DNA of 64,000 nt from positions 3,548,037 through 3,612,036 of the forward strand of contig NZ_VFMQ01000001.1 of assembly GCF_006715175.1 (NCBI RefSeq), written 5' to 3'. Position 1 is the stretch's first letter. Each line of letters opens with the position of its first letter. The notes beneath the pieces were generated by a model that was not told where the DNA came from, did no database searches, and saw only the letters and a program-made list of their open reading frames with translations. The stretch comes from Curtobacterium citreum (GTDB lineage Bacteria; Actinomycetota; Actinomycetes; Actinomycetales; Microbacteriaceae). Of this stretch, positions 5,663 to 20,159 are shown in pieces. Position numbers and translations under genes: made by a program.

Positions 5663-6109
5663 CTACTGTGCGACCTGGTCGAAGGTGTACGCCTTGGGCT
5701 GCTGCGCGGCGTGCGGGTGCTCCGCGCCGGCGTAGACCTTCAGCTTCTTGAGCTGCTCACGGCCGAGGGTGTTCTTCGGCAGCATGCCGCGGATCGCCTT
5801 CTCGACGGCGCGGGTCGGGTGCTTCTCGAGCATCTCCGGGTAGGAGGTCGCGGTGAGGCCGCCCGGGTAGCCCGAGTGACGGTAGTAGACCTTCTTCGCG
5901 AGCTTGGAGCCGGTGAGGGCGACCTTGTCCGCGTTGATGATGATGACGTAGTCACCCATGTCCATGTGCTGGGCGAAGGTGGCCTTGTGCTTGCCGCGCA
6001 GGAGCGCCGCGGCGTGGGTGGCGAGGCGGCCGAGGACGACGTCGGTCGCGTCGATGACGATCCAGTCGTGCTGGACGTCTGCCGGCTTCGGGGAGAACGT
6101 ACGAGTCAC
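5663..6109 (-). CDS. rplM: 50S ribosomal protein L13
   Basis: Early-assembling large-subunit protein. The 148-residue product begins [20 protein letters not shown] if the GTG at 6109 is used; this fits the family length and N-terminus. The frame is open upstream, but that stretch does not look like protein. YRHSGYPGG and the AIRGMLPKN motif are present. No good Shine-Dalgarno precedes the GTG. It is the first gene of rplM-rpsI(-glmM), driven by the promoter at 6248-6277. Confidence 0.95.
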
Positions 6110-6247
6110 AGGAGTGCTGCTTTCGTGTCGAGGTGAGGAGTCCGTGAATCCCGCTCCGGTGGGTGTTCCTCGTGTGATGCACGCGGAACTGCCCGGTGGA
6201 GGGCCCATCTGACTGTCCGGCGCACGGGGCGCACAGACCAAGGAAAG

Positions 6248-6277
6248 AGCCTACCGGACCGGCCTCCCGCTGGTCAA
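6248..6277 (-). promoter_or_regulatory. rplM-rpsI promoter
   Basis: On the minus strand TTGACC (6272-6277) and TAGGCT (6248-6253) are 18 bases apart, a good match to a primary sigma factor promoter. The predicted start near 6241 gives a leader of about 130 bases. The identical -10 TAGGCT is used by the rpsL promoter at 44838. Confidence 0.7.
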
Positions 6278-6307
6278 ACGCGACCGGCTCGGTCCGGGTG
6301 GCCGTTT

Positions 6308-6365
6308 CGCGCGTAGGAGGTCGAAACGCGCGTAGGAGGCCCGAACTTCTGACCACCTACGCGCG
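6308..6365. repeat. Direct plus inverted repeat of CGCGCGTAGGAGG
   Basis: CGCGCGTAGGAGG occurs at 6308-6320 and 6327-6339, 19 bases apart. A third copy is inverted at 6353-6365 with one mismatch. The second and third copies can form a 13-bp hairpin with a 13-base loop. It lies upstream of the rplM -35, so a regulatory or structural role is possible; the function is unknown. Confidence 0.6.
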
Positions 6366-6414
6366 ATTCGGCTTCCCACCGCACGCGCCATGGGTCGGAA
6401 CGCGCGTTCACGGC

Positions 6415-6456
6415 GGACGGGAGGCACGGTGTCAGCTGGCACCGTGCCTCCCGTCC
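6415..6456 (-). terminator. Terminator palindrome after the nuclease gene (GGACGGGAGGCACG family, copy 2)
   Basis: Perfect 17-bp arms (6415-6431 and 6440-6456) enclose an 8-base loop. It begins 9 bases after the nuclease stop codon on the minus strand, the right place for a terminator. The arm sequence GGACGGGAGGCACGG is the same as in the palindromes at 2596 and 20199. Confidence 0.75.
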
Positions 6457-6465
6457 GGCCTCTGG

Positions 6466-9400
6466 TTACGCGACGCGGGCGCGGCGGCGGCGTGCCACCA
6501 GCACACCCGCACCCGCAGCGAGGAGCAGCAGCGCCGCGGCGATGCCACCCGTCAGGTCGGCACCCGTGAACGCGAGCGCACCCGTCACCGGGTCGATGGT
6601 GATCGTCGTCCAGCCGATCAGCGACCCGTCAGCAGCCGTGACCACGGTGCGGTGGGGCCCAGCCGGCGCATCCGCGGGAATCGTCACCCGCACCGTCCCG
6701 TCAGCCGCGACCGTCACCGTGCCCAGCAACGTCGGCGTCGAGAACATCCACACGTTCACCCGCTGCCCCGCGTACTGCGTGCCGACACCGATCGTGATCG
6801 TCTCACCCGCACGAGCCGACGACGGCGCCGTGACCGTTCCGCGGTTCGCATCCGTCAGGGACGACTCCGACGGAGCGACCGGCGTCGAATCAGCACCCGG
6901 GGTCGGCGCGGGCGTCTGACCGGCACCCGGAGCCGTACCAGGGTCGGTCGGATCGGTGCCCGGGTCCGTGGGGTCCGTGCCCGGGTCCGTCGGGGTGCTG
7001 TCGCCGGTCAGGTCGAAGCCGACCAGGATCGGGTCGTGGTCGCTCGCCCGGTAGACGTCGTCGGTGTACAGGTTCGTCGCGTTGTAGTTGTAGCGGCTGT
7101 ACTCCAGGGCCACTGACTCGACCGAGTTGATGTTCCAGATGTCCACACCCGTCACCGTCGCGAGTGCCGCCGGCGAGGCGAGCACGTGGTCGAGCGACCC
7201 GCTCAGGCCGCTGAACACGTACGACCACTCCGACGAGTCGAGCGCCGGCCCGAGGTCGGTGTAGCCAGCCTCGTCGAGGACGACCATCGGGTCCTCCTGG
7301 CTGTAGGCGTTGAAGTCGCCCAGCATGAACACCTTGTCGGTGCCGTACTGCGTCTGCATCTTTGCGGAGAACGCGGCGAGCGCCGTCGCCTGCTTCACGC
7401 GGTCCGCGTTCGACGCCCCCTGGCCGTCGCCCTGGTCAGCGTTCTCGCCGGTGCCGGACCCCTTCGACTTGAAGTGGTTCGCGATCACGAGGAATTCGTC
7501 GTCCGCCGTGCCCCCGACCGGACGGAACGCGTCCGCGACGGGCTGACGGGCGTTCGTGAACGCCGGGTCGATGAGGATCGTCGACTCACCCGTGGGTGCG
7601 ACGCGGTCCTTCTTGTAGATGAGTGCCAGGCGGATGACGTCCTCGCTCGCGGGGAGCGTCTTCGGCGACTTCACGTACGCCCAGGTGTCGGCACCGGTCG
7701 CGGCGTTGAGCGCCCCGACGAGGGTGGCCACGGCGGCGTCACGGTCCTGGCCGAACTCGGCGGAGTTCTCGATCTCCTCGAGCGAGACGACGTCGGCCCC
7801 GAGACCGTTGATCGCCTTGACGATCTTGACCTGCTGGCGCTCGAAGTCCTCTTGCTCGGCGGCGCCACGGGCGTTGCAGCCGGAGTTCACCGTGACGGGG
7901 TCGCCGTCGCGGTCCGTGTAGTACGAGCAGCCGGTGAGCTGGTCGCCCGTCGTCGGGAAGTAGTTGAGGACGTTGAAACCGGCGAGCTTGAGGTCGCCGC
8001 CGACGTCCTGGGGCTTCGTCGTGCGGACGTTCGAGAACGTCGCGGGCAGGTCGGTCTTCGCCGTAGCCCCGGTGATCGGCGACGTCGGCTGGAACTTCCA
8101 CGAGTCGTTGCGGTAGTCGAGGACGACGGGCTTCGTGAAGGTCGCCGCTGCTCCGACGGTGACGGGCCCCTGCGTCAGCCAGGACACCGGGATCGACTTG
8201 TTCGCCTGGGTCAGGAAGTTCGTGCTGCCACCGTCGTCGAGGGTGACCTTGCGGGCGGCGTTGTCGGCCTCCACCGCCTTGGCCGCTGCGCTGCCCGGTC
8301 GGGCGACCTCGGTGGGCTGGATCAGCCGCTTCGTACCAGACGCCAGGACGACCTCGCCGTACTGGTTCGTCGTGTAGTTGTCGGCGACGGTGTAGTCGCC
8401 CTGCGGCGCGACAAGCATGCTCTCGAGCGACTCGCGCTGCGCGTCCGAGGACGGGAACGCGACGGTGGCGGCCTGCGGTGCCGGCACGGTCTCGGTGAGC
8501 TTCGTCATGCCGCCGGCGGCGACGTTCAGCTCGGTGAGGCCGTAGTACTCGCTCACCGAACCGGTGAGTTGGACGTAGTCGCCCGCTGCGACCTGGGACG
8601 CGGTGGCCGAGGAGAACACGAAGACGCCGTCGGACGCGGTGTGCGTGCCGAAGTCGATCGCACCGCCGGTGTCGGGGGTCTGCACGGTGTAGCCGTTGAA
8701 CCCACCGGTGGCGTACACGGCGGTGACGACGCCCTTCGTGACGACGGACTTGCCGACGTACGGCGAGGTGTCCGTCGTGCCCTGCAGCTGCGCGATGGTG
8801 ACGGCCTCGGCAGGAGCACCGGGGTCCGTCGGGTCGGTCGGGTCGGTCGGGTCCGTCGGCGCCGTCTCATCGGCGGCGTTCGTCGGCGTGAGTGTCGTCG
8901 TGACGGAGAAGTCCGCCGCGTTGTCGTCGCTGTCGACCGTGCCCTGGCGAACCAATCCGTTCGGGACGGTGTTTCCGCCGTCGACCGTGCGCACGTGCCC
9001 CTCGAAGGTGTTCGACGCACCGTAGCCGAGGAGGTCCACGACCCCCGCGGTGCCCGCCGCGATCGCGCCGGTCGGCAGGGTGAGCGCCTTGGACTGGTCG
9101 GACAGGACCAGCGTGCCCGTGGTGCCCGAGGCGTTCAGGGTCGCGGTGTCGTCCGCGGCAGGCAGGTCAGCACCCGTCGCGCCGTTGCCCGCCATCGTGA
9201 CGAGGAACGTCCCGTTCGCGGGGACGGTGCCCTCGAGGCCGCTCGTGCTGAACGCCGCCGAGCCGGTCGCCGAGCGGTACTGCAGCGACCAGCCGTCGAC
9301 CGAGACCGGAGCGTCGGTCGGGTTCGCGATCTCGACGAACTTCTTGTTGAAGAGGGCGTTCGCGCTGCCGCCCTTCAGGTAGGCCTCGGCGATGACGAGA

Positions 9401-9510
9401 CCCGTGCCGGCGGTGTTCGCACTGGCGACGGAGACGGAGGCGAGTGGCGCTGCGAGGAGTGTCGCGGCCACCGTGGCGCACAGCAGAGTGCGGCCGACGA
9501 TCTTGGGCAT
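6466..9510 (-). CDS. Secreted, wall-anchored ExeM/NucH-like endonuclease/phosphatase-fold nuclease
   Basis: Probable extracellular nuclease of 1014 residues. In order: a signal peptide (1 to about 31, ending SVASA), a lamin-tail-like domain (about 35-165, EAYLKGGSANALFNKKFVEI), a TDPTDPTD linker, an OB-fold region (about 240-450), and an endonuclease/exonuclease/phosphatase domain (about 505-830). The last shows FNVLNYF near 510, SLEEIEN near 578, LGDFNAYSQ near 733 and SDHDP near 824, which together make the metal-dependent active site. Next come a PTDPGTD repeat linker and a separate Ig-like region. The C-terminus is LAFTG (about 982), a hydrophobic helix and RRRRAR, a sorting signal of the LAxTG type known for class E sortases. 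No sortase gene is in the window. It likely cleaves extracellular DNA for phosphate or nucleoside scavenging or biofilm turnover (inference from the family). It is transcribed alone. Confidence 0.85.
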   Translation of the reverse strand: MPKIVGRTLLCATVAATLLAAPLASVSVASANTAGTGLVIAEAYLKGGSANALFNKKFVEIANPTDAPVSVDGWSLQYRSATGSAAFSTSGLEGTVPANGTFLVTMAGNGATGADLPAADDTATLNASGTTGTLVLSDQSKALTLPTGAIAAGTAGVVDLLGYGASNTFEGHVRTVDGGNTVPNGLVRQGTVDSDDNAADFSVTTTLTPTNAADETAPTDPTDPTDPTDPGAPAEAVTIAQLQGTTDTSPYVGKSVVTKGVVTAVYATGGFNGYTVQTPDTGGAIDFGTHTASDGVFVFSSATASQVAAGDYVQLTGSVSEYYGLTELNVAAGGMTKLTETVPAPQAATVAFPSSDAQRESLESMLVAPQGDYTVADNYTTNQYGEVVLASGTKRLIQPTEVARPGSAAAKAVEADNAARKVTLDDGGSTNFLTQANKSIPVSWLTQGPVTVGAAATFTKPVVLDYRNDSWKFQPTSPITGATAKTDLPATFSNVRTTKPQDVGGDLKLAGFNVLNYFPTTGDQLTGCSYYTDRDGDPVTVNSGCNARGAAEQEDFERQQVKIVKAINGLGADVVSLEEIENSAEFGQDRDAAVATLVGALNAATGADTWAYVKSPKTLPASEDVIRLALIYKKDRVAPTGESTILIDPAFTNARQPVADAFRPVGGTADDEFLVIANHFKSKGSGTGENADQGDGQGASNADRVKQATALAAFSAKMQTQYGTDKVFMLGDFNAYSQEDPMVVLDEAGYTDLGPALDSSEWSYVFSGLSGSLDHVLASPAALATVTGVDIWNINSVESVALEYSRYNYNATNLYTDDVYRASDHDPILVGFDLTGDSTPTDPGTDPTDPGTDPTDPGTAPGAGQTPAPTPGADSTPVAPSESSLTDANRGTVTAPSSARAGETITIGVGTQYAGQRVNVWMFSTPTLLGTVTVAADGTVRVTIPADAPAGPHRTVVTAADGSLIGWTTITIDPVTGALAFTGADLTGGIAAALLLLAAGAGVLVARRRRARVA

Positions 9511-9616
9511 GCTGACCTTCGGGTCGGAGACGTGGATGGTCAGACCGTACAGACCTGCAGAGTCCCTCAGGTTGCGCCCAGGTAAATGATTGCGCTCGAC
9601 AACATCGTCGTCGGCC

Positions 9617-9901
9617 TCACTTCCCGGTGAGGAGGCGCAGCACCATCACGCCCGTGGTCAGCACGTACCAGCCCGCGAGGTTACCGCGCTTCTTCGCGAG
9701 TACCAGCGACGGTGTGGCTGCCGCGCCGGCCACGGCGAGTGCGATCCAGCGGATCACCGGATCCTGCCCGGCCACCCCGACTGTGAAGAGGGCCACCGTG
9801 GCGACGACGACGAGGAGGACCGTGATCGATCGACGAGCTCGACCGACTTTCTCCGCTGACGGTGCGCCCGTCACGTCGCTACCCGCCGCGCCCTGATCCA
9901 T
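9617..9901 (-). CDS. Small 3-TM membrane protein, last gene of the peptide/ABC cassette
   Basis: A 94-residue protein not recognised by family. Residues 1-24 are polar; hydrophobic stretches follow at about 25-43, 48-64 and 75-91, so three membrane passes are likely, with a basic KKRGN loop. The ATG at 9901 overlaps the permease stop by 31 bases, which implies translational coupling. Small multi-pass proteins in this position often give self-immunity in bacteriocin loci; that role is inferred from context only. Confidence 0.65.
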   Translation of the reverse strand: MDQGAAGSDVTGAPSAEKVGRARRSITVLLVVVATVALFTVGVAGQDPVIRWIALAVAGAAATPSLVLAKKRGNLAGWYVLTTGVMVLRLLTGK

Positions 9902-10581
9902 CCTGCCGTGATCGGCAGTACGACCCAGATCAGGCCCGAACTGACCGTTGGGAGCACAGATGCCTCTCCCGTCAGCCCGCTCTGCAGCGTCCCGAACCGT
10001 ACGTACGCCGTCCACGTGCCGAGGAAGCCGAGAACGATGTCGACCACGAGCATCACGACGAGGACACTGACCAGGCCAAGGGCCAGCGACCGCAGCGACG
10101 CTCCCAGTCCGAAACCGAACGCCGCCGACGAATAGGACAGCGCAGCGACCTGCACGACCGGCTGGCCGACGTCCCACGAAGCCACGTGGCCCCCGATGAG
10201 GATCGCGACACCGGTGCCGACGAAGCCGCACATGACGGTGAACAGGACGACCGCGGAGATGATCACCGCGCAGGCAGCCGAACGGGCAGCGAAGATCGAG
10301 TCACGCGTCAGGCCAGCGAGGATACCGTCCCGTTCCCCGCCGCGAGCCGCATCGCCCACGCCGACGACGACCCCCACGATCGAGGCCGCCAACGCCGCAG
10401 GAAGACCTGCGGTGACGATGACCTCACCGACGTCGAAGTTCGCGGACCTCGAGACAAGTGAGACGCTGAACGCGCAGCAGGCGACGACGAGCGCCACCAG
10501 TACGCCGAAGCCCGCCGCTGCACCGGCCGTGTCGAGTCGCTTCCGCACCTCGAGGGTCGTGATCGTCACGAACGAGGTCAT
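9871..10581 (-). CDS. ABC-2-type transporter permease
   Basis: A 236-residue integral membrane protein with about six hydrophobic segments and a short basic N-terminus (MTSFVTITTLEVRKRLD) typical of ABC-2 permeases. It has no conserved catalytic motif. Its ATG overlaps the stop of the ATPase gene in an ATGA, so the two are co-translated and presumably form one transporter. The setting, behind a secreted peptide gene, suggests peptide export or self-protection rather than nutrient uptake. Confidence 0.8.
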   Translation of the reverse strand: MTSFVTITTLEVRKRLDTAGAAAGFGVLVALVVACCAFSVSLVSRSANFDVGEVIVTAGLPAALAASIVGVVVGVGDAARGGERDGILAGLTRDSIFAARSAACAVIISAVVLFTVMCGFVGTGVAILIGGHVASWDVGQPVVQVAALSYSSAAFGFGLGASLRSLALGLVSVLVVMLVVDIVLGFLGTWTAYVRFGTLQSGLTGEASVLPTVSSGLIWVVLPITAGWIRARRVAT

Positions 10582-11456
10582 CGTGCTCCCTCTGATTCGA
10601 ACTCTGCCGAAGCGACTTCGCCGTAGAGACTCTCGAGCACCCTGCCCGATACCCCGACTCTGGTCACGTCCAAGCCGATCGACACTGCTACTCGGACGGT
10701 GTCCGGGGCGGTCCCCTCTACGTGCACCACACGACCGCGCATCGTCGCCGGAACGCCGCGATCCGACATAGCCGCAAGGAGTCGGGCCGGCTCATCGACC
10801 TCGATGTCACATCCCCGGGCCGCCGTGTCGGCGATCGATTCGACACAGACGATCTCGCCTCGGCTCACGATGATCGCGTCGTCGATCATCGTCTCGAGCT
10901 CGCCGAGCAGGTGGCTGGACACGACCACGGTCGCCCCTGCCTGTCGGAGATCCGAGACGACGCCACGCATCCACGCGATGCCGTCGGGGTCGAGACCGTT
11001 CATCGGCTCGTCCAGCAGCACGAGCATCGGCGATCCGAGCAACGCGACGCCGATCGAGAGTCGCATCCGCATCCCGAGCGAGAGCGCTGCGACCCGGCGT
11101 CTCAGGACGGCCCCGAGTCCGACCCGCACGGCCATCGACTCGGCCTCGTCCGGAGTACGTCCCACGAGTCGAGATCGGAGCAGAAGTGTCTCCCGGACCG
11201 TTCGCCCTCGGTGCATGTCGACATCTCCGAACACTGCGCCGATCGGCTCGCCACGCTGCCACGGAACATCACGGACGGTCCCCCGGTCTGGCCGCACGAG
11301 CCCCGCGAGGACCGCGAGGAGTGAGGACTTTCCAGCACCGTTGGGTCCGATCAACCCGTACACGCGCCCAGCCTCCAGTTGGATCGAGGCATCGTGGATA
11401 CGAGGTCGAGCCCGGCCTCGGCCGCGCAGCCAGACGCTCTGGAGTTCGAGCACCAT
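10578..11456 (-). CDS. ABC transporter ATP-binding protein of the peptide cassette
   Basis: A 292-residue ATPase. Walker A is GPNGAGKSS at about 37-45 and Walker B is LVLLDEPMNGLD. The signature is degenerate (LSLGMRMRL in place of LSGGQ), as often seen in BcrA/CcmA-type exporters that work with ABC-2 permeases. The ATG at 11456 has a GAGAGGA ribosome site. The open frame upstream of it has no family similarity. It is separated from the peptide gene by a 62-base gap with a strong hairpin, and overlaps the permease by 4 bases. Confidence 0.9.
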   Translation of the reverse strand: MVLELQSVWLRGRGRARPRIHDASIQLEAGRVYGLIGPNGAGKSSLLAVLAGLVRPDRGTVRDVPWQRGEPIGAVFGDVDMHRGRTVRETLLLRSRLVGRTPDEAESMAVRVGLGAVLRRRVAALSLGMRMRLSIGVALLGSPMLVLLDEPMNGLDPDGIAWMRGVVSDLRQAGATVVVSSHLLGELETMIDDAIIVSRGEIVCVESIADTAARGCDIEVDEPARLLAAMSDRGVPATMRGRVVHVEGTAPDTVRVAVSIGLDVTRVGVSGRVLESLYGEVASAEFESEGAR

Positions 11457-11472
11457 TGGTTCCTCTCGACGT

Positions 11473-11509
11473 CGCCGGGCGGACCGGCGGTGGACCGGTC
11501 CACCCGGCG
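11473..11509 (-). terminator. Hairpin between the secreted-peptide gene and its ABC genes
   Basis: Arms 11473-11487 and 11495-11509 pair over 15 bases with one mismatch and a 7-base loop. It lies directly after the peptide stop and before the ATPase start, with no U tract. As a leaky terminator or RNA-stabilising stem it would give more peptide mRNA than transporter mRNA, an arrangement common in bacteriocin operons (inference). Confidence 0.6.
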
Positions 11510-11518
11510 ATGTACAGA

Positions 11519-11929
11519 TCATCCGAAGAAGTAGTTCCACAGCGCCGAGAACATCTCCTGGATGCTCATCTGGGCGATCGCGTTGATCCCGGCTCGGATC
11601 CATCCGGCAAGGCCGTTCCACCAGTTCTTGAAGGCGTTCAAGCCGTTCTTCAGCGCCGTCTTGAGCGCCGGGATGACGGATGAGGCGTTGTTCTTCAGCC
11701 AGTCGACGATCGGTTTGATCGGGATGCCATCGGTCGATGAGCCGCCGGACGAAGCGATGACGCCCCCGTGTCGCGGCACGGGAAGCGACGCGGCCGGTGC
11801 GGAGGACGCTACCGCGCTTACCGAGGAGGCATGGACGGGCTGCGCAGAGGCTGCGGTCGCGCCAACGGTGCTGAGCATCGCCCCGGTGACGATCGCTCCG
11901 ACGATCCCCACAGTGCGGATCTTGTTCAT
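11519..11929 (-). CDS. Small secreted Trp-rich amphipathic peptide precursor (bacteriocin-like)
   Basis: The 136-residue product matches no family I recognise. It has a Sec-type signal peptide (MNKIRTVG, then a hydrophobic core, cleavage expected after ATAASA at 29) and a Ser/Ala/Pro/Gly-rich middle (30-68). The C-terminal 68 residues are amphipathic and tryptophan-rich: Trp77, 103, 104, 110 and 131, with KNWWNGLAGWIRAG in the centre and ending ALWNYFFG. This part has no cysteine and is slightly cationic. The ATG at 11929 follows a GGGGA ribosome site; an open extension upstream is not protein-like. An ABC ATPase, permease and 3-TM protein follow on the same strand. Together this suggests a membrane-active bacteriocin or toxin with its immunity/export genes. 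Function is unproven. Confidence 0.6.
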   Translation of the reverse strand: MNKIRTVGIVGAIVTGAMLSTVGATAASAQPVHASSVSAVASSAPAASLPVPRHGGVIASSGGSSTDGIPIKPIVDWLKNNASSVIPALKTALKNGLNAFKNWWNGLAGWIRAGINAIAQMSIQEMFSALWNYFFG

Positions 11930-11948
11930 GGTGATTCCCCAATCATTG

Positions 11949-12000
11949 TGCGGCGTCGTCGCCGCATGAACCACCCTATCGGTACTTCAGTATGAAATAC
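11949..12000 (-). promoter_or_regulatory. Leader hairpin and operator-like dyad upstream of the peptide gene
   Basis: GTACTTCA (11982-11989) and TGAAATAC (11993-12000) form an inverted repeat with one mismatch around GTA, the size of a dimeric repressor site. Nearer the gene, TGCGGCG (11949-11955) and CGCCGCA (11960-11966) form a perfect 7-bp stem with a TCGT loop, 19 bases before the start codon. The stretch is AT-richer than its surroundings. No regulator gene is adjacent. Confidence 0.4.
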
Positions 12001-12052
12001 CAGACACCAGAAGGCCTTTCACCTACCGGAACATGTCGGCCCGATGTCTCGA

Positions 12053-12799
12053 TCACGACCCGACCGGCACCCACTCCCGCCCGACCCGGTGCACCGCCGG
12101 CCCGTGCCCCGGCAACACGATCTCGGGGATCGGCAGCGCCCGAGCGGACTCGAGCGCCACGCCGAGGTCCGCCGTGAAGAACGGCGTGATCATCCGCGGC
12201 CGCGGGGTCCACGACGCCGGCTGCGTGTCGTGCCGCGAGACGACGGCGTCCCCCGTGACGATCGCGTCCGCGGCCGGCAGGAGGTACGCGGTGGACCCGT
12301 CGGTGTGCCCGGTCGCGGGGAACGGCGTGATCGCCCGCCCCTCGAAGTCCGCTCCCGTGAAGGCCCGGACGCTCGGCACCGTGGTCGGCCGGAGCGCGTC
12401 GGACCGGATCGCGCGGGCGAGCCACCGGAGCACCCGCGGCGACGCCAGCCGGCCGCCGATCTCCGCCGTCGTGACCTGCTGCCGCGAGGGTCCACGCACG
12501 TTCGACACCTCGTCCGCGTGCGCCAGGACCTCGACGTGCGGGTGCCGCTCGAGGATGCCCGGGATCCCACCGACGTGGTCGACGTGCCCGTGGGTGACGT
12601 ACACACGCCGCAGGTCGGCGAGGTCGTGCCCGGCCCAGCGCACGGTCTCGAGCACGAGGTCGCTGTCCGCCGGGTAGCCCGCGTCGATGAGGGCGACGCC
12701 GTCCTCCTCCGCGAGCACGACCCAGTTCGAGACCGGCCCCTCGACGAAGACGACCCCGGGGGCGACGGAGACGACGGACCGGGGTTCGCGGGAGCTCAT
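12053..12799 (-). CDS. Metallo-beta-lactamase-fold hydrolase
   Basis: A 248-residue cytoplasmic MBL-fold protein. THGHVDHVGG carries the HxHxDH metal motif (about 75-84), later ligands are in ATGHTDGS and TGDAVV, and LPGHGP near the end supplies the last His. No signal peptide is seen, and beta-lactam hydrolysis is not implied; glyoxalase-II-like thioesterase, lactonase or RNase-like roles are all possible. Its ATG overlaps the truA stop (ATGA), so it is coupled to truA. Confidence 0.88.
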   Translation of the reverse strand: MSSREPRSVVSVAPGVVFVEGPVSNWVVLAEEDGVALIDAGYPADSDLVLETVRWAGHDLADLRRVYVTHGHVDHVGGIPGILERHPHVEVLAHADEVSNVRGPSRQQVTTAEIGGRLASPRVLRWLARAIRSDALRPTTVPSVRAFTGADFEGRAITPFPATGHTDGSTAYLLPAADAIVTGDAVVSRHDTQPASWTPRPRMITPFFTADLGVALESARALPIPEIVLPGHGPAVHRVGREWVPVGS

Positions 12800-13713
12800 G
12801 CCCCGACGGTACCGGCGTCCGGCTCGTCGTCCGTCCGCCGCGCACGCGTCTGCGACGCGCGGGCCGCGAGTTCGTCGTCGGCCGGGTACCCGACCTCGGT
12901 CAGGGTGAGTCCGACGGCGGGCGCGACCGCGAAGGCGCTGGTCCGCTGCTCGGCGACCCGGAGTTCCTCGAGCCGGTCCGGGCCGAAGCGGCCCTCCCCC
13001 ACGGCGATGGTCGCGCCGACCATCGCGCGCACCATGGAGTGACAGAAGGCGTCGGCCTGGAGGCGCGCCACCAGCACGCCGTCCGGCTCGCGGTCCCAGC
13101 GGAACTCCTGCAGCGTCCGGATCGTGGTCGCGCCCTCGCGCGGCTTGCAGAAGGTCGCGAAGTCGTGCAGCCCGAGCAGCGTCAGCGCACCGCGCTCCAT
13201 CGCCACCGGGTCCAGCCGCGTCGGGTGCCAGAGCGTGTGCCCCCGACGACGCGGATCGCGACCGGCCGCGGCGTCCGCGACCCGGTACTCGTAGCGCCGC
13301 CAGAGCGGGGAGAACCGGGCGTCGAACCCGTCCGGCGCGACCGACGCCCGCGTCACCACGACGTCCCCGGTGCGCCCGGCGAGCCCGTTCAGCCGCTTGA
13401 CGAGCCCGTCGAGCGACGTCCGCGGCGGCCCGTCCGGTGCCGACCGGCGGGGTCGGGTCAGCGCGCCCCACTGCTCCGCCGACAGGTCCAGGTGCGCGAC
13501 CTGTCCGGTCGCGTGCACCCCCGCGTCGGTGCGTCCCGCGACGGTCAGGAGCGGCGGCTCGCCCCACCGGGTGAACACCGTCGCGAGCGCGTCCTCGAGT
13601 GCCCCCTGCACGGTCCGCAGGCCCGGCTGCCGAGCCCACCCCGAGAACGCGGCCCCGTCGTACGCGACGTCCAGACGCACACGCACCGCTCCCGAACCGA
13701 CCGTCTCGTCCAC
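12796..13713 (-). CDS. truA: tRNA pseudouridine(38-40) synthase
   Basis: Converts uridines 38-40 of the tRNA anticodon arm to pseudouridine. The 305-residue protein has the TruA core: VAYDGAAFSGWARQPG, the catalytic-Asp motif AGRTDAGVHATGQVAH, and DFATFCKPRE. The frame runs farther upstream, but GTG 13713 is chosen because a TACGCT hexamer ends 7 bases before it, implying a leaderless mRNA. truA often follows rplQ directly; here 6.5 kb lie between them. Confidence 0.94.
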   Translation of the reverse strand: MDETVGSGAVRVRLDVAYDGAAFSGWARQPGLRTVQGALEDALATVFTRWGEPPLLTVAGRTDAGVHATGQVAHLDLSAEQWGALTRPRRSAPDGPPRTSLDGLVKRLNGLAGRTGDVVVTRASVAPDGFDARFSPLWRRYEYRVADAAAGRDPRRRGHTLWHPTRLDPVAMERGALTLLGLHDFATFCKPREGATTIRTLQEFRWDREPDGVLVARLQADAFCHSMVRAMVGATIAVGEGRFGPDRLEELRVAEQRTSAFAVAPAVGLTLTEVGYPADDELAARASQTRARRTDDEPDAGTVGA

Positions 13714-13720
13714 GCGAGCG

Positions 13721-13726
13721 AGCGTA
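13721..13726 (-). promoter_or_regulatory. -10 element (TACGCT) of a probable leaderless truA promoter
   Basis: TACGCT on the minus strand ends 7 bases before the GTG at 13713, identical in sequence and spacing to the coaA promoter. A half copy of the GACGGGAGGC palindrome (13742-13753) lies just upstream. Confidence 0.5.
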
Positions 13727-13783
13727 CCGGGGGCGGGGCGCGCCTCCCGTCCGGCGGTCGCCGTGCCGCGCGACCGTACGCCG

Positions 13784-13832
13784 GTGTCAGCGCGTGTCAA
13801 CCCGTGTCAGTGCCGCGTCAGTGGCGCGTGAG
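13784..13832 (+). promoter_or_regulatory. Array of five phased direct repeats (GTGTCAG-type), probable activator site
   Basis: GTGTCAG (13784), GTGTCAA (13794), GTGTCAG (13804), GCGTCAG (13815) and GCGTGAG (13826) recur every 10, 10, 11 and 11 bases, one per helical turn. A CACGAT hexamer 10 bases later (13843-13848) could be the -10 of the ABC exporter genes that start at 13880. Direct heptamers at 11-base spacing next to the -10 are how SARP activators bind. A SARP-family gene lies just beyond the exporter. Binding is inferred. Confidence 0.6.
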
Positions 13833-13879
13833 TGCCCGTCGGCACGATCGACACCGACATCGACGAAAGGACCATCCCG

Positions 13880-14881
13880 ATGACCACCACCCCCCTCGCG
13901 GTCGAGGCAACCGGCCTCGTCAAGACCTTCGGGTCGAACCGCGCCGTGGACGGCGTCGACCTCCGTGTGGAGGCCGGGACCGTCTACGGCGTGCTCGGGC
14001 CGAACGGCGCCGGCAAGACGACCACCATCTCGATGCTCGCGACCCTGCTCAAGCCGGACGGCGGCGAGGCCCGCGTCTTCGGCCACGACGTCCGCCGCGA
14101 GCCGCAGACCGTCCGCTCCCTGATCGGCGTGACGGGGCAGTACGCGAGCGTCGACGAGACCCTCAGCGCCACCGAGAACCTCGTCATCTTCGCGCGGCTG
14201 CTCGGCCTGTCCCGCGGCGACGCGAAGCGCAGGGCGACCGAGCTGCTCGAGCGGTTCGGCCTGACCGAGGCGGCCTCCCGTCCCCTCAAGGCGTTCTCCG
14301 GCGGCATGCGTCGTCGCCTCGACCTGGCGGCGAGCCTGATCGCGCAGCCGCCGCTGATCTTCCTCGACGAGCCGACCACGGGGCTCGACCCGCGGACCCG
14401 CGCGCAGATGTGGGACACGATCCGGGAGCTCGTCGCGACCGGGTCGACCGTGCTGCTCACGACGCAGTACCTCGACGAGGCCGACCAGCTCGCCGACCGC
14501 ATCGCCGTGATCGACCACGGCCGCGTCGTCGCCGAGGGCACCGCCGACGACCTGAAGTCCTCGGTCGGCACGGCCTCGCTGCAGCTGCGCCTGGCGGACG
14601 CCGACCCGGAGTCCCTCGCGACGGCGGCCACGCTCGTCGAGCGGGTGCTCGGCACGCCGGCCGTGGTCAGCCCGGAGGGCGCGCGCCTGACCGCACCGAT
14701 GACGGCGCCCGACCGCGTCACCGACCTGCTCGTGTCGTTCCGCGACGCGGGTGTCTCCCTCGCCGAGATGAGCGTGCAGAAGCCGACGCTCGACGAGGTG
14801 TTCCTCACCATCACCGGTTCGCCGTCGTCCCCGGACGACCAGGCCGAGACCGAGCGCGCGCTCGAAGGGAGCCTCGCATGA
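13880..14881 (+). CDS. DrrA-like ABC exporter ATP-binding protein
   Basis: A 333-residue ATPase of the daunorubicin-resistance (DrrA) type. Walker A GPNGAGKTT at about 40-48, signature FSGGMRRRLDLA, and Walker B IFLDEPTTGLDP are all intact. The family's C-terminal extension (about 230-333) is present. The ATG at 13880 has an AAAGGA ribosome site 9 bases upstream. The permease start overlaps its stop by 4 bases. The substrate is unknown; drugs, lipids or a secondary metabolite are usual for this class. Confidence 0.94.
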   Translation: MTTTPLAVEATGLVKTFGSNRAVDGVDLRVEAGTVYGVLGPNGAGKTTTISMLATLLKPDGGEARVFGHDVRREPQTVRSLIGVTGQYASVDETLSATENLVIFARLLGLSRGDAKRRATELLERFGLTEAASRPLKAFSGGMRRRLDLAASLIAQPPLIFLDEPTTGLDPRTRAQMWDTIRELVATGSTVLLTTQYLDEADQLADRIAVIDHGRVVAEGTADDLKSSVGTASLQLRLADADPESLATAATLVERVLGTPAVVSPEGARLTAPMTAPDRVTDLLVSFRDAGVSLAEMSVQKPTLDEVFLTITGSPSSPDDQAETERALEGSLA

Positions 14882-15711
14882 CCACCGTCCTCGAACCCAC
14901 CACCACCGCCGCACCCCGGGTCACCCCGCGTCCGGGTGTCGGTGGCTCCGGCCTCGCCGCCACGGTCCGTCAGTCGTTCACGATGGCGTACCGCGGCCTC
15001 GTCAAGATCCGTCGGACGCCCGAGCAGCTGTTCGACGTGACGCTCATGCCGATCGTCTTCACCGTGATGTTCACGTACATCTTCGGCGGGGCGATCTCCG
15101 GCGACGTCGGCAGCTACCTGCCCGTGATCATCCCCGGCATCCTCGTGCAGACGGCGATCACGTCGTCGGTCGTCACCGGTGTCCAGCTCCGCGAGGACAT
15201 GGACAAGGGCGTCTTCGACCGCTTCCGCTCCCTGCCGATCGCCCGCATCGCCCCGTTGGCCGGTGCCCTCCTCGCCGACACCGTCCGGTACGCGATCGCC
15301 ACGACGATCACCTTCGTGGTCGGCATCGTGATGGGCCTGCGCCCGGCCGGCGGCCTCGGTGCGGTGCTGCTCGCCGCCCTGCTGGTGATCGTGGTCGCGT
15401 GGGCGATCAGCTGGGTCTTCGCGTACTTCGGCGTCATCGCCCGCACCGCGTCGAGCGTGTCCGGCATCGCGAACCTCGTGCTCTTCCCGCTGACGTTCCT
15501 GTCGAACGCGTTCGTCCCGACGAACACGCTCCCCGCGTGGCTCCGGTGGTTCACCGAGGTCAACCCGGTCTCGCACCTCATCACGGCGGTCCGCGACCTG
15601 GTGAACCACGGCACCGTCAGCGGCGACCTGTGGCTGAGCCTGCTCGGCGCCGCGGTCATCGTCGCGGTGTTCGCGCCGCTGACGGTCCGCGCGTACATGC
15701 GGAAGGCCTGA
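14878..15711 (+). CDS. DrrB-like ABC-2 exporter permease
   Basis: A 277-residue membrane protein with six predicted helices and the ABC-2 signature region. It is rich in DrrB-like motifs: IFGGAISGDVGSYLPVIIPGI, then DKGVFDRFRSLPI after the second helix, and SNAFVPTNTLPAWL before the last. The ATGA overlap with the ATPase shows co-translation. It ends 21 bases from the end of the convergent SARP gene, and no strong terminator lies between them. Confidence 0.93.
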   Translation: MTTVLEPTTTAAPRVTPRPGVGGSGLAATVRQSFTMAYRGLVKIRRTPEQLFDVTLMPIVFTVMFTYIFGGAISGDVGSYLPVIIPGILVQTAITSSVVTGVQLREDMDKGVFDRFRSLPIARIAPLAGALLADTVRYAIATTITFVVGIVMGLRPAGGLGAVLLAALLVIVVAWAISWVFAYFGVIARTASSVSGIANLVLFPLTFLSNAFVPTNTLPAWLRWFTEVNPVSHLITAVRDLVNHGTVSGDLWLSLLGAAVIVAVFAPLTVRAYMRKA

Positions 15712-15732
15712 GGCCCCGCTGCGCGGTGCGCC

Positions 15733-18700
15733 TCACCCCTCGACGCGGAGCTCTTCGAGGAGCGCCCGCGTCCGCACGACGACCTCGTCCGGGCCCCAGC
15801 CGGACGAGGTCGTCTCGGCGTCCGCCAGTGCCTGCTCGCCCACACCGGCGACCAGGAGCGGCCGGACCCGTGCGTGCGCGAGGACGGCGTAGTCCTGCCG
15901 GGTGCCGACCCGCGTGGCGACCGCCCAGCAGCGGGCCGCGTCCGCCGTGCGGCCGTCCCGCAGCAGCGCGATCGCCAGGCCGAGCATGGCGGTCCCGACG
16001 ACCGGCATGTCGAGCCACGCGGACCGCAGGCGCAGCTGGACGAGGGCCCCGGTCCGCAGACGGCGTGCGACGTCGCGTTCGCCGGCCGGGAGGCGCGTGG
16101 CGGCACCGTCGGACCGGTTCGCGTCCGCGGCGCGGTCGGGTCCACCACTTCCGCGGTCGCGTTCGGGTTCCTGCTCGCGTTCGTGCTCGCGGTCACGTGC
16201 TCGTTCGTGTTCGTCGACGGCGGCGATGCGGGCCGCGCCGGCCATCAGTCGCCAGTGCACCGCGCGGGTGCGGGGGTCCCGCAGCAGGTCCCACGCCGCG
16301 GTGTACGCCGCGGCCGCCCGGTCCGGGTCGCCCGCCCACCGCGCGCACTCGGCGTCGATCGCGAGCGCGAGCACCCCCACCTGCGCCGCACCGTCCTGCG
16401 GCCCACCCCGGAGCGTCACCGGACGCAGGCGCAGGTCCTCGGCGATCGTGCGGGCCCGGTGCAGGTCGCCGGTGGCGGCCGAGGCGAGCCCGACCGTCCA
16501 GCTGATCTCGTACAGGTCGTCGTCGGCGCCGAACCGCTCGAGCTGCTCGCGGGCCGCCTCGGCGGTGGCGAGGGCCTCGGCGTACCGGCCGCCCTGGGCG
16601 TGCAGCTGCGTGAGCGTCACCGCCGCCGAGCCGCTCGTCCACGCGTCCCCGGTCACGGCCGACAGCTCGGCGGCGCGTCGGGCGTACCGGAAGGCCGCCT
16701 CCGGTTCCCCGGCGTTCTCGGCGAGCGGTGCACTGAGCATGTGCGCGAGGCAGGCCACCCCGGGGTCGCGGTCCTCCCGCAGGCGCACGAGGAGGGCCGT
16801 CCCCTCGGCCGGTCGGCCGAGTGACAGGAGCAGGTCGGTCTCGGCGTCGAGCACCGGGAGCCCCGTCGTGCCGGTCCGTCGCAGCCGTCGGAGCGTCGAG
16901 ATCGCTCGCGCGCTCGTCCGCAGGTCCCCGAACGCCGCCGAGGCGCCGCAGAGCACGAGCGAGACGACCGTCGCCGCGCGGGCGTCCGACGCGACGGGTC
17001 GGTCGCGGAGCAGGGCCACGACGTCCGGGGCGGCGGCGACGACCTCGCCGTGGGTACCGCGGAACGTCCAGTACCCGGCGAGCGCCGCGAACACGTGCGC
17101 GACCGTCGGGACGTCGTCGTCCCGGAGCGCCCACCGGAGCAGCGTCACGAGGTTCTCGGCCTCCCGCCGGACCTCCCGGAACGCGACGAGCTGCGCGGGA
17201 CCGGAGGTGGCGAACAGGTTCCGCGCCGCCGAGAACCCGCGACCCCAGGACGTCATCGCGGCGCGGACCTCGTCGATCGCGCCACGGTCGGTCAGCCGTG
17301 CGGCCCCGAACTCGCGGACGGTCTCGAGCAGCCGGTAGCGCACCGGCTCCCCCTCGGTCTCGACGAGCTGCACGAGGGACTGCTCGACGAGCTCGGCGAG
17401 GTCGTCGAACGCCACGAGGTCGTCCCCGCCCGGCGCCACGGCCTGGACGGCGTCGACGGGGACCCCGTCCGGGAAGAGCGCGAGCCGGGTCAGGAGCTCC
17501 TGCGCCCCGGGGTCGAGGAGCCGCCAGCTCCACTCGATCACCGCGAGCAGCGTGCGGTGCCGTTCGGGGGCGCTGCGGTCACCGCCGCGCAGCAGGGCGA
17601 ACCGGTCGTCGAGCCGTCGTTCGACCTCCTCGACGCTCATGCCGCGGACGCGCGCGGCGGCGAGCTCGATCGCGAGCGGGGACCCGTCCAGCCGCGTGCA
17701 GATGCGCCGGACCGCGTCGACCGGCAGCACCGCTCCGGGGCGGGCCGCGCGGGCACGGTCCGTGAAGAGCCGGACGGCAGCCCCGTCCTCGGCGACGGGG
17801 AGCGGGGCGAGGGGGGCCACGACCTCGCCGGCGACGGCGAGCGGTGCGCGCGAGGTCGCGAGCACCCGGAGCGACGGCGCCGCCGCGAGCAGCTCGGCGG
17901 TCTGCCGTGCGACCCCGGCGACGAGGTGCTCGCAGTTGTCGAGCACGAGCACGGTCGGCCCGTCGTCGAGCACCCCGACGACGCGGCTGCGCAGGTCCGT
18001 GGCGACGGCGTCCCGGATCGACCGCGCCGAGCGCACCTCGGCGATCCCGAGCAGCGCGGCGAGCGCCGGCAGCAGGTCGTCGGCGTCGGTCAGCGGGGCG
18101 AGCTCGCACACCACGACCGCCGTCGTCGCGGGGAGTCCCGCCGCGACGGCCTGCGCGAGCCGGGTCTTGCCGAGACCACCGGCACCGAGCACCGTGACGA
18201 GCCGGTGGTGCGCCAGCAGGTCCGTGACGGCGGCGAGGTCGGCCTCGCGCCCGACCAGGGCGTTCGGCGCGGCCCGGAGGCCGATCCGTCGCGCGGCACC
18301 TGCGGTCGGGACTGAGCGGCGGAGCAGGTCGGCGTTCAGTCGCACGAGCTCGGCGGAGGGATCGGCCCCGAGCTCCTCGACCAGCCGGTCCCGGTGCGCC
18401 GCGAACACCGCGAGCGCCTCGGTCACCCGGCCGTCCGCGGCGAGGGCGTGCATGCACCCGGCCACCGCCACCTCGTCGAAGGGGTCCGCGGTGGTCTCGG
18501 CGAGCCAGACCGCGGCGGCCTCGGCGGTGTCACCGGCGTCGAGCAGGAGCCCCGCGAGCCGTCGTCGGAGCGCACGACGCGCCGCGGCCGCACGCTCGGC
18601 GAGCTCCTCGCCCGCAGTTCCCTCGACGTCCGATCCCGGGTCGCCGCGCCAGGCATCGAGCGCCGCACGGACGGCGGCCGCGTCGTCGCTCGCGGCCGCA

Positions 18701-19020
18701 CGCTCGGCGCGGAGGAGGTCGACGTCGCCGTCGTCGCCGCCACCGAGCGCGTACCCGGTGCTCGTCGAGACGACCAGGCCGTCCGCCACGCTCCGGCGGA
18801 GCCGGGACACGAGCGTCTGCAGGGCCGCACGGGCGCCCCGGGGACGCTCCTCCGGCCACAGCTCGTCGATGAGCGCCTCGGTCGTCAGGGTCTGCCCCCG
18901 GGCGAGCACCAGCGCGACGAGGAACACCCGCGCGAGCGCACCCGGCACGGCCGTCGGCACCCCGGACCGATCGGCGACCGACACGGGCCCGAGCACGCTG
19001 ATCCGGCAGTCGTTCGGCAC
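15733..19020 (-). CDS. SARP/AfsR-type transcriptional regulator (wHTH-BTAD-NTPase)
   Basis: A 1095-residue regulator. It has an OmpR-like winged helix (about 6-92, ending in STGYAL), a bacterial transcriptional activation domain (about 100-234), and an NB-ARC-like STAND ATPase with Walker A GAGGLGKT at 279-286 and Walker B VLVLDNCEH near 350. A long helical repeat region follows (about 600-1095). Such proteins activate secondary-metabolism or transport genes when a ligand or nucleotide signal is sensed. The GTG at 19020 is preceded by TAGACT 6 bases away. The adjacent DrrAB operon with a phased repeat array is the obvious target candidate (inference). The C-terminal half contains a charged RERDREHEREQEPERDR run. 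Confidence 0.9.
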   Translation of the reverse strand: MPNDCRISVLGPVSVADRSGVPTAVPGALARVFLVALVLARGQTLTTEALIDELWPEERPRGARAALQTLVSRLRRSVADGLVVSTSTGYALGGGDDGDVDLLRAERAAASDDAAAVRAALDAWRGDPGSDVEGTAGEELAERAAAARRALRRRLAGLLLDAGDTAEAAAVWLAETTADPFDEVAVAGCMHALAADGRVTEALAVFAAHRDRLVEELGADPSAELVRLNADLLRRSVPTAGAARRIGLRAAPNALVGREADLAAVTDLLAHHRLVTVLGAGGLGKTRLAQAVAAGLPATTAVVVCELAPLTDADDLLPALAALLGIAEVRSARSIRDAVATDLRSRVVGVLDDGPTVLVLDNCEHLVAGVARQTAELLAAAPSLRVLATSRAPLAVAGEVVAPLAPLPVAEDGAAVRLFTDRARAARPGAVLPVDAVRRICTRLDGSPLAIELAAARVRGMSVEEVERRLDDRFALLRGGDRSAPERHRTLLAVIEWSWRLLDPGAQELLTRLALFPDGVPVDAVQAVAPGGDDLVAFDDLAELVEQSLVQLVETEGEPVRYRLLETVREFGAARLTDRGAIDEVRAAMTSWGRGFSAARNLFATSGPAQLVAFREVRREAENLVTLLRWALRDDDVPTVAHVFAALAGYWTFRGTHGEVVAAAPDVVALLRDRPVASDARAATVVSLVLCGASAAFGDLRTSARAISTLRRLRRTGTTGLPVLDAETDLLLSLGRPAEGTALLVRLREDRDPGVACLAHMLSAPLAENAGEPEAAFRYARRAAELSAVTGDAWTSGSAAVTLTQLHAQGGRYAEALATAEAAREQLERFGADDDLYEISWTVGLASAATGDLHRARTIAEDLRLRPVTLRGGPQDGAAQVGVLALAIDAECARWAGDPDRAAAAYTAAWDLLRDPRTRAVHWRLMAGAARIAAVDEHERARDREHEREQEPERDRGSGGPDRAADANRSDGAATRLPAGERDVARRLRTGALVQLRLRSAWLDMPVVGTAMLGLAIALLRDGRTADAARCWAVATRVGTRQDYAVLAHARVRPLLVAGVGEQALADAETTSSGWGPDEVVVRTRALLEELRVEG

Positions 19021-19026
19021 GGTCGG

Positions 19027-19032
19027 AGTCTA
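19027..19032 (-). promoter_or_regulatory. -10 element (TAGACT) of a probable leaderless SARP promoter
   Basis: TAGACT ends 6 bases before the GTG at 19020. It lies in the 26-base gap after the FUSC gene, so the regulator may have its own promoter as well as read-through. Confidence 0.4.
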
Positions 19033-19046
19033 CGGAGCCGGTGCCG

Positions 19047-20159
19047 TCACCGCTTCCGGCCGAACGGTCCCGTCTTCGTGTCGACGTCCTCGGTCGCGCG
19101 CTTCTCCGACTCGAGCACCCCGCGCAGGGCGATGATCGCACTCGAGGTGACGGTCACGTGCGAGGGGTTCGAGCGGCTGGCGTCGAGCGCCTCCTCGAGC
19201 CGCGCGATCGCACGGTCACCCTCGTCCTCCGGGCACTCGCCGCGCACCACGCAGGCGACCTGGCGGAGCGCCGCCGCGAACGGTCCGGCGAACGCCGGGT
19301 CCGGGCGCCCGAGGCTGTCCGCGACCGGACCGGAACTGGCCACGAGTTCGGTGAGGTCCGTCGTGTACCAAGCGGCTCGTTCCAGGGCACGGAACCGAGC
19401 GCCGTCGGTGGCGAGCCGGGCCCGCGAGCCGCGGAGGGCCGAGCGCGGGTTCATCCGGCGACTCTCCTGCGCGACCGACACCCGGTCCCGCACGTCCGCG
19501 ATCGCCCGGTCGAGCTTCGCCTGCTGCCGGTCCCACGCGTGCACGTCGGGTTCGCCCTCGTCGAGGACGTCGGCGAGGTCGTCCAGGTGCTCCGCCAGGA
19601 CCCCGTTCACCTGGTCGATGCGCCGTTCCGCGTCCCAGAAGTGCAGCGGCGGCACGATCACGAAGTTCACCGCGAGGCCGATGGCGATCCCGATGCCCAT
19701 CTGCACGACGTACGCGAACGAGTAGTTCTCGGCGTTGCCCCCGCCGACGAGCAGCACGAAGAGCGCCGCCATCGGCACCCACGAGTACCCCTCGCCGAGG
19801 ATCCGGAACCCGCTCACGAGCACCCCGAGCCCGACCACGAGCGCGACGGCGATCACCCCCGGGTCGCCGACGAGCATCGTGAACCCGGCGATGAGGATCC
19901 CGAGCGTGATCCCCACGAGCGTCTGCACCCCCGCACGGATGCCGGCGAACACGGTCGTCCGCATCGCGACGATGGCCCCGAGCGGCGCGTAGTACGGGTA
20001 CTCGGCGGCCACCCCGGGGGCGTACTTCGCCAGCGTCCACGCGATCACGGCCGCGAGCGCGGCCTTCGCCGCGAGCAGCAGCCGCGGCTGCGTCCCCGAG
20101 TCGCGGCTCCACTGCCACACGCGGCGCCCCACGCCGGTGATCCGCTCTGCTCGTGCCAT
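19047..20159 (-). CDS. FUSC/aromatic acid exporter-family membrane protein
   Basis: A 370-residue protein. The N-terminal half (about 25-175) holds six hydrophobic helices typical of FUSC/ArAE-type proteins, with the conserved YPYYAPLGAIVAM and RAGVQTLVGITLG segments. The C-terminal half is a soluble, charged helical domain. Family members export aromatic acids or drugs. The ATG at 20159 follows a TACCGT hexamer by 9 bases, so the mRNA has almost no leader. The SARP gene follows after 26 bases, and the pair may be co-transcribed. Confidence 0.85.
   Translation of the reverse strand: MARAERITGVGRRVWQWSRDSGTQPRLLLAAKAALAAVIAWTLAKYAPGVAAEYPYYAPLGAIVAMRTTVFAGIRAGVQTLVGITLGILIAGFTMLVGDPGVIAVALVVGLGVLVSGFRILGEGYSWVPMAALFVLLVGGGNAENYSFAYVVQMGIGIAIGLAVNFVIVPPLHFWDAERRIDQVNGVLAEHLDDLADVLDEGEPDVHAWDRQQAKLDRAIADVRDRVSVAQESRRMNPRSALRGSRARLATDGARFRALERAAWYTTDLTELVASSGPVADSLGRPDPAFAGPFAAALRQVACVVRGECPEDEGDRAIARLEEALDASRSNPSHVTVTSSAIIALRGVLESEKRATEDVDTKTGPFGRKR

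Follow-up and report, generated by a model that had tools for sequence, protein, structure and literature searches.

Propionicin T1 (thoenicin 447) is an actinobacterial bacteriocin that is made as a 96-amino-acid (aa) prepeptide with a signal for the Sec secretion route and yields a 65-aa cationic product; an ATP-binding cassette (ABC) gene 68 nt downstream is thought to confer immunity, according to the relevant passages of PMC5756557. The protease-activated antimicrobial peptide (PAMP) of Propionibacterium jensenii is described there as a secreted precursor of 198 aa with a signal, from which a protease frees the active C-terminal fragment extracellularly. The characterised leaderless bacteriocins were, as stated in PMC11580447, until recently all from Bacillota. 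Here we report a set of four genes from Curtobacterium citreum (complete genome of 3.61 Mb; assembly GCF_006715175.1), located in a stretch of 64,000 nt (contig NZ_VFMQ01000001.1, positions 3,548,037 to 3,612,036) that is called the window and whose numbering is used below. The set encodes a small precursor peptide, an ABC ATPase, an ABC-2-like permease and a small membrane protein. We infer from the sequences, with a probability of about 0.7, that these genes make an unmodified (class II-type) bacteriocin and protect its producer, a reading that includes the killing, the processing and the immunity. The gene order, the co-occurrence, the empty chromosomal site, the constraint on each region of the peptide, the predicted fold of its core and the relatives were all computed.

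The four-gene set and its relatives

A preliminary description, drawn up from the letters of the window, had placed the four genes together on one strand, and all of them were found there on the reverse strand. The gene of the 136-aa precursor (11519..11929; supported by its open reading frame and by relatives from sequence searches) is followed by those of the ATPase (10578..11456; 292 aa counted from its ATG), the permease (9871..10581; 236 aa, with five to six hydrophobic segments) and the small membrane protein (9617..9901; 94 aa). The frames overlap as had been described, by 4 bp between ATPase and permease and by 31 bp between permease and small protein. The three membrane spans assigned to the 94-aa protein are plausible only, with two clear hydrophobic segments and a weaker third one.

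The peptide is encoded in 12 of the 66 Curtobacterium genomes, and the permease in exactly those 12. All 11 other carriers have the four genes arranged as in the window, the small protein being matched in each (in L025 only at E 0.001). With the same gene order in 12/12 carriers, the set is more than a chance assembly.

Genome searches outside Curtobacterium covered samples of 398, 396, 295, 347 and 299 genomes. The peptide homologues adjoin an ABC pair in all 18 strong loci read, 12 of them in Curtobacterium and six elsewhere, which are intact and keep the order of peptide and pair; among the six, G657 and G839 are near-identical. The preliminary description had asked whether homologues always sit beside such a pair; neither homologues lying mostly apart from the ABC genes nor a clear match of the peptide to a structural or enzymatic family was found. 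In the genus Frondihabitans, the genome G307 (named protein P0045, Frondihabitans sp. PhB188) carries all four genes too, at a different site. In the family of G657, which by likeness to the Paenarthrobacter protein P0039 is probably Micrococcaceae, 8 of 295 genomes were matched. An intact peptide gene, an ABC pair and a gene for an Rce1-like (CPBP) protein are present in G657, G839, G1008, G989 and G978, of which G839 was placed by its near-identity to G657, and G978 from tblastn and its reading frame alone. The locus in G944 (L092) keeps an intact ABC pair beside a broken peptide gene and a broken Rce1-like gene. A weak match in a third family (G702) lies beside an ABC ATPase, a membrane protein and an Rce1-like protein, and further weak profile matches were obtained in G158, G179, G347, G360 and G589. 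Distant relatives of the peptide were seen in L093 (525-1097) and L094 (1016-1438) without an adjacent ABC pair; both stretches carry a PadR-like gene and a gene for a membrane protein of about 125-130 aa on the opposite strand.

The permease profile matched 17 of the 299 family genomes. Five genomes of the genus Frondihabitans hold ten such permeases between them, one in L032 (the G307 locus) and nine in the eight stretches L115-L122. A peptide of the same kind and an ABC ATPase lie upstream of eight of the ten (L032, L115, L116, L117, L119, L120 twice, and L121); no signal is visible in the peptide frame of L116. L118 has the ABC, permease and small membrane protein genes and no recognised peptide, and L122 has a permease without an ABC gene and without a recognised peptide. 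The profile of the window family (A4) matched peptides of L120 (2.4e-8), L115 (1.6e-7), L116 (4e-6), the second one of L120 (5e-4) and L117 (7e-4). A second profile (A6) was built from five of the tested peptides, so that their own A6 scores are circular. Profile-profile comparison matched the two types of peptide with a probability of 96.3%, but at 9% identity and over columns that include the low-complexity linker. The two types are likely, though not certainly, related, because profile A4 reaches L121 only at 0.04 and does not find L119 (1.9).

The precursor peptide and the hairpin behind its gene

The N-terminus of the precursor (residues 1-29; 11843..11929, reverse strand) is signal-like. 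The Sec signal of the preliminary description is supported by a single hydrophobic segment (residues 7-25) and an A-S-A site before residue 30, and not by a signal-peptide predictor. A variable linker or propeptide (residues 30-64; 11738..11842) leads to a conserved C-terminal core (residues 65-136; 11522..11737), the probable mature peptide. Over 66 pairs among the 12 carriers, the ratio of non-synonymous to synonymous differences (pN/pS; like the hydrophobic segments, computed by simple scripts) was 0.32 for residues 1-30, 0.83 for the linker (residues 31-64; mean identity 0.32) and 0.41 for the core. This pattern implies that the linker is a propeptide or spacer and that the last 70 or so residues are the working part. 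As had been described, the C-terminal segment is amphipathic and Cys-free with five Trp, which holds for the last 68 residues, whose net charge is about +4.

Sequence searches gave 15 related proteins, a profile 38, and a wider profile six more. Of 39 peptides, 37 have a core of 65-67 residues, counted from its conserved start to the end; in the other two the start pattern was not matched. Each of 42 cores carries a net positive charge (+1 to +7) and 4-12 Trp, and 36 of them are without Cys. The Paenarthrobacter-like relatives have a Lys-Arg pair directly ahead of the core, a plausible processing site. A public 47-aa protein of Curtobacterium sp. GD1 (P0048) has the same sequence as the C-terminal end of P0044, a family member of 134 aa, and its start was probably called inside the longer gene.

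AlphaFold2 predicted the core (residues 65-136, with 43 sequences) as five helices, with a mean predicted local distance difference test (pLDDT) of 89.4 and a predicted template modelling score of 0.77; this model was used in place of that of the full precursor, which was poor (pLDDT 52.3). No family had been recognised in the peptide beforehand, and none was matched in Pfam or NCBIfam at E 1. Peptide profiles compared by sequence with solved structures gave only matches to unrelated proteins at E 0.19-0.92, and for the predicted structure, a check that had been proposed, no significant match emerged from the PDB and viral libraries.

The strong hairpin reported behind the peptide gene is indeed present (11472..11510, reverse strand; 17 pairs, loop of 5). 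Its folding energy is -43.1 kcal/mol (z -6.3), and 0 of 200 shuffles were equally stable. It is without a T-run, and a simple scan for promoters and terminators found nothing. Comparable hairpins (z -3.9 or lower) occur in 11 of the 12 carriers, the twelfth (L020) having none. Their recurrence with different stems suggests a retained role in setting how much peptide is made relative to the pump; the hairpin would hold the peptide message above the pump message.

Chromosomal site and surroundings

The set occupies one chromosomal site in 12/12 carriers, between truA and a nuclease gene. In the closest non-carriers, L051 and L052, the segments corresponding to 9000-9606 and 12052-12600 are contiguous with an overlap of 3 bp, at identities of 98.5/98.0% and 96.7/95.1%. 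The junctions delimit the entire insert, exactly what these genomes are without, as 9607..12051. The comparison across close strains that had been proposed gives 12 carriers among 66 genomes and a clean empty site in the two closest non-carriers; the set is dispensable and cleanly absent from near relatives. The nuclease gene follows a metallo-beta-lactamase-fold gene in all 25 loci read from the 54 non-carriers (in L074 the nuclease was matched only from residue 250). The metallo-beta-lactamase-fold gene (12053-12799, reverse strand) was not seen at the site in 4 of the 11 other carriers (L021, L023, L025 and L026), so that the chromosome varies on both sides of the set.

The block had been taken for a transferable cassette, which is not borne out: no mobility gene lies within the four-gene set, all carriers share one site, and the divergence of the ABC genes among the carriers tracks that of the flanks (Mantel r 0.89, with 0 of 2000 permutations as high). 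The divergence is 0.44 for the ABC genes and 0.21 for the flanks, a difference of about twofold, and peptide distance tracks ABC distance (r 0.91). For the same reasons of site and correlation, free transfer within the genus is not favoured. Neither the window peptide (P0001) nor P0039 was matched among 72,556 plasmid records. The most economical account is a long-resident set that was cleanly lost several times or swapped through shared flanks, and not a mobile element. The lower G + C content ascribed to the block (0.65-0.67) holds against the right side (0.73-0.78; 12001-19500) and is barely distinct from the left (0.67-0.71; 6001-9500), so that the contrast is one-sided.

The block is flanked by truA and the metallo-beta-lactamase-fold gene on one side and by the gene of a 1014-aa LTD/nuclease protein on the other. 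The latter (6466-9510, reverse strand) encodes an LTD domain plus an exo/endonuclease-phosphatase domain behind a signal-like start, and its C-terminal tail of LAFTG, hydrophobic and basic residues resembles a sortase anchor. Near the insert, on the opposite strand (13832-15711, forward strand), lie a second ABC ATPase gene with a weak DrrA-type C-terminal match and, in the long open reading frame behind it, an ABC-2-like permease sequence.

Proposed function and known systems

The best reading of the set is a Sec-exported, protease-matured, membrane-active bacteriocin that would work like propionicin T1 and belong to a family of its own. The precursor would be exported by the Sec route, signal peptidase would cleave it after residue 29, and a protease would strip the drifting linker near residue 65, which would release a cationic, Trp-rich, five-helix product of about 66-72 residues. 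This core peptide would insert into the membranes of close relatives and kill them. The ATPase and the permease, probably as a dimer of each, would expel it from the membrane of the producer in the manner of LanFEG, and the small membrane protein would help the pump, its place being taken in the second family by the Rce1-like protein. With a Sec signal the ABC pair should not be needed for peptide export, an argument that has been reported for propionicin T1 (PMC5756557). The immunity role fits because of the gene order, the nearest model of the ATPase, the all-or-none distribution and the exchange of the third component, and because the ABC pair is intact beside a broken peptide gene in G944. 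G944 and L118 look as expected of immunity-only loci, and L118 is a candidate for one.

The ATPase matches PF00005 at 2.2e-24, and its best NCBIfam model is TIGR03740 (lantibiotic protection), with 141.5 bits well below the cut-off of 309.75. The permease and the small membrane protein have no Pfam or NCBIfam match near a cut-off, and the permease has no match among solved structures at E 1. A role in phage defence was considered and set aside, since the PADLOC matches of the ATPase look generic (best, mad3 at 4.7e-22) and the other three proteins have none. The bacteriocin with self-immunity that had been proposed is the best-supported reading, with an ABC pair in every strong locus read and no family matched by the peptide; the cassette part of that proposal is not supported as worded.

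Several observations weigh against this reading. LanFEG systems have two permease genes and here there is one only, and there is no dedicated protease gene for removal of the linker. Structure searches with the core model returned nothing significant, and only the best of the five models is firm, as the other four reach pLDDT 58.6-82.0 (spread among the five, 58.6-89.4). Two weak matches, G831 and G883, lack an adjacent ABC pair, the ABC match of G831 lying about 4.5 kb off, and in other genera L123-L125 have ABC and permease genes without a recognised peptide. The set also mostly follows its flanks, and is less dynamic than many bacteriocin loci.

An amphipathic peptide like the phenol-soluble modulins (PSMs), serving as a surfactant or cytolysin in leaf spreading or against eukaryotes, which the ABC pair would export and guard against, appears unlikely. 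The core is amphipathic, helical and Cys-free, two models of PSM exporters, PmtC and PmtA, give the ATPase 79.6 and 69.6 bits, both far under their cut-offs, and the solved ABC structures that it matched include 6xjh, which we take to be a PmtC-type chain. However, PSMs are short single helices, unlike this folded core of fixed length, and they are not known to have a Sec signal or a linker, whereas the precursor has a constrained signal and a variable linker.

We consider it quite improbable that the peptide is a signal of the producer itself, or a surface-active structural peptide, which the ABC pair and membrane protein sense or clear and which is no weapon. The history of the set, for the most part vertical and confined to a single site (Mantel r 0.89), would agree with this, as would the PadR-type regulator genes in some related loci (G657, G831 and G883), but the set is missing from 54 of 66 genomes, including relatives with flanks 95-98.5% identical, the window's own set contains no regulator, and a Trp-rich cationic bundle of 66 residues is large for a signal. 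Many ABC pairs of this general type exist, mostly with other substrates, and some of the loci that the permease profile matches lack a recognised peptide (L118, L122-L125), as would be expected of an ordinary housekeeping or envelope-stress transporter beside which an unrelated small secreted protein lies by chance. That explanation is very improbable, given that peptide and permease are jointly present in 12/12 and jointly absent from 54/54 Curtobacterium genomes, that the pairing recurs in other genera, and that peptide and ABC distances correlate at r 0.91.

The bacteriocin reading shares features with several known systems. As in LanFEG, an ATPase whose nearest model is TIGR03740 and an ABC-2-like permease lie behind a peptide gene, but the TIGR03740 cut-off is not reached, there is a single permease, and lanthipeptide genes are absent. 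The lack of Cys, of a modification enzyme and of a double-glycine leader, noted in the preliminary description, was confirmed by the core composition and by Pfam and NCBIfam searches: the core has no Cys and none of the four proteins is a modification enzyme as in lanthipeptides, and the signal-like N-terminus, the absence of a leader match and an ATPase without a peptidase domain differ from double-glycine class II systems. Lactococcin 972-like peptides resemble the set in being Sec-type secreted with membrane-protein and ABC partners; they have a beta fold, whereas the window core is predicted to be all-helical, and neither Pfam nor NCBIfam linked P0001 to that family at E 1. Such peptides have been reported for Curtobacterium sp. 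APC 4022, and a DUF95 (SpoIIM-like) protein is given as the mark of circular bacteriocin clusters (PMC10456417). DUF95 is matched by none of the four proteins. Circular bacteriocins are compact helical bundles of saposin-like fold; the core of the window peptide is modelled as five helices, and the structure searches gave this model no significant match.

Aureocin A53 and lacticin Q (PF11758) are likewise described as cationic, Trp-rich, Cys-poor and helical, with ABC-type partners (PMC11580447). They are leaderless and of about 50 aa, unlike the 136-aa precursor with its constrained signal-like N-terminus and variable linker, and the set contains no PH-domain protein, unlike aureocin A53-type systems. 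PF11758 did not match P0001 at E 1, matched one of 19 relatives at E 0.45, and has no match in the window's own genome; an aureocin-like census of the order gave 0 of 347 genomes, with no control matched either, so that this zero carries no weight. Leaderless singletons from Curtobacterium and Frondihabitans and a Paenarthrobacter peptide are listed in PMC11580447, where mining kept the metagenome set to proteins of fewer than 100 residues. These singletons might be internal start calls of the present family, because P0048 is identical to the tail of P0044. Neither the motif NWWNGLAGW nor the peptide family was found in the open-access literature searched, and Curtobacterium does not occur in the available part of PMC7494827.

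With PAMP, as described in PMC5756557, the peptide has in common a signal-bearing precursor and, on the reading proposed here, a C-terminal fragment released by a protease, the precursor of PAMP being longer (198 aa) and without mention of an ABC partner in the passages on it. Propionicin T1 shares with the set an actinobacterial origin, a Sec-type signal, a cationic product of about 65 aa and a downstream ABC gene; compared by description and not by sequence, it differs in having no long linker and a single ABC gene, where the window has a linker and the trio of ATPase, permease and small protein. The peptide is likely to represent a new bacteriocin family, as it matches none in the libraries searched. 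We give even odds to a wider proposal, in which the peptide is one branch of a so far undescribed superfamily of prepropeptide bacteriocins that leave by the Sec route and have a compact core of five helices rich in Trp. It would span two or more families of the order and three or more types of core, each type accompanied by an ABC pair of its own and, commonly, by a third membrane protein (small with 2-3 spans, or Rce1-like). As a recurring, self-contained actinobacterial set of peptide and pump, it offers a natural comparison for killing and immunity between carriers and near-identical relatives with the empty site. If the reading is true, the Sec-prepropeptide route to helical Trp-rich bacteriocins is recurrent and has been overlooked by mining for leaders, Cys or very short open reading frames.

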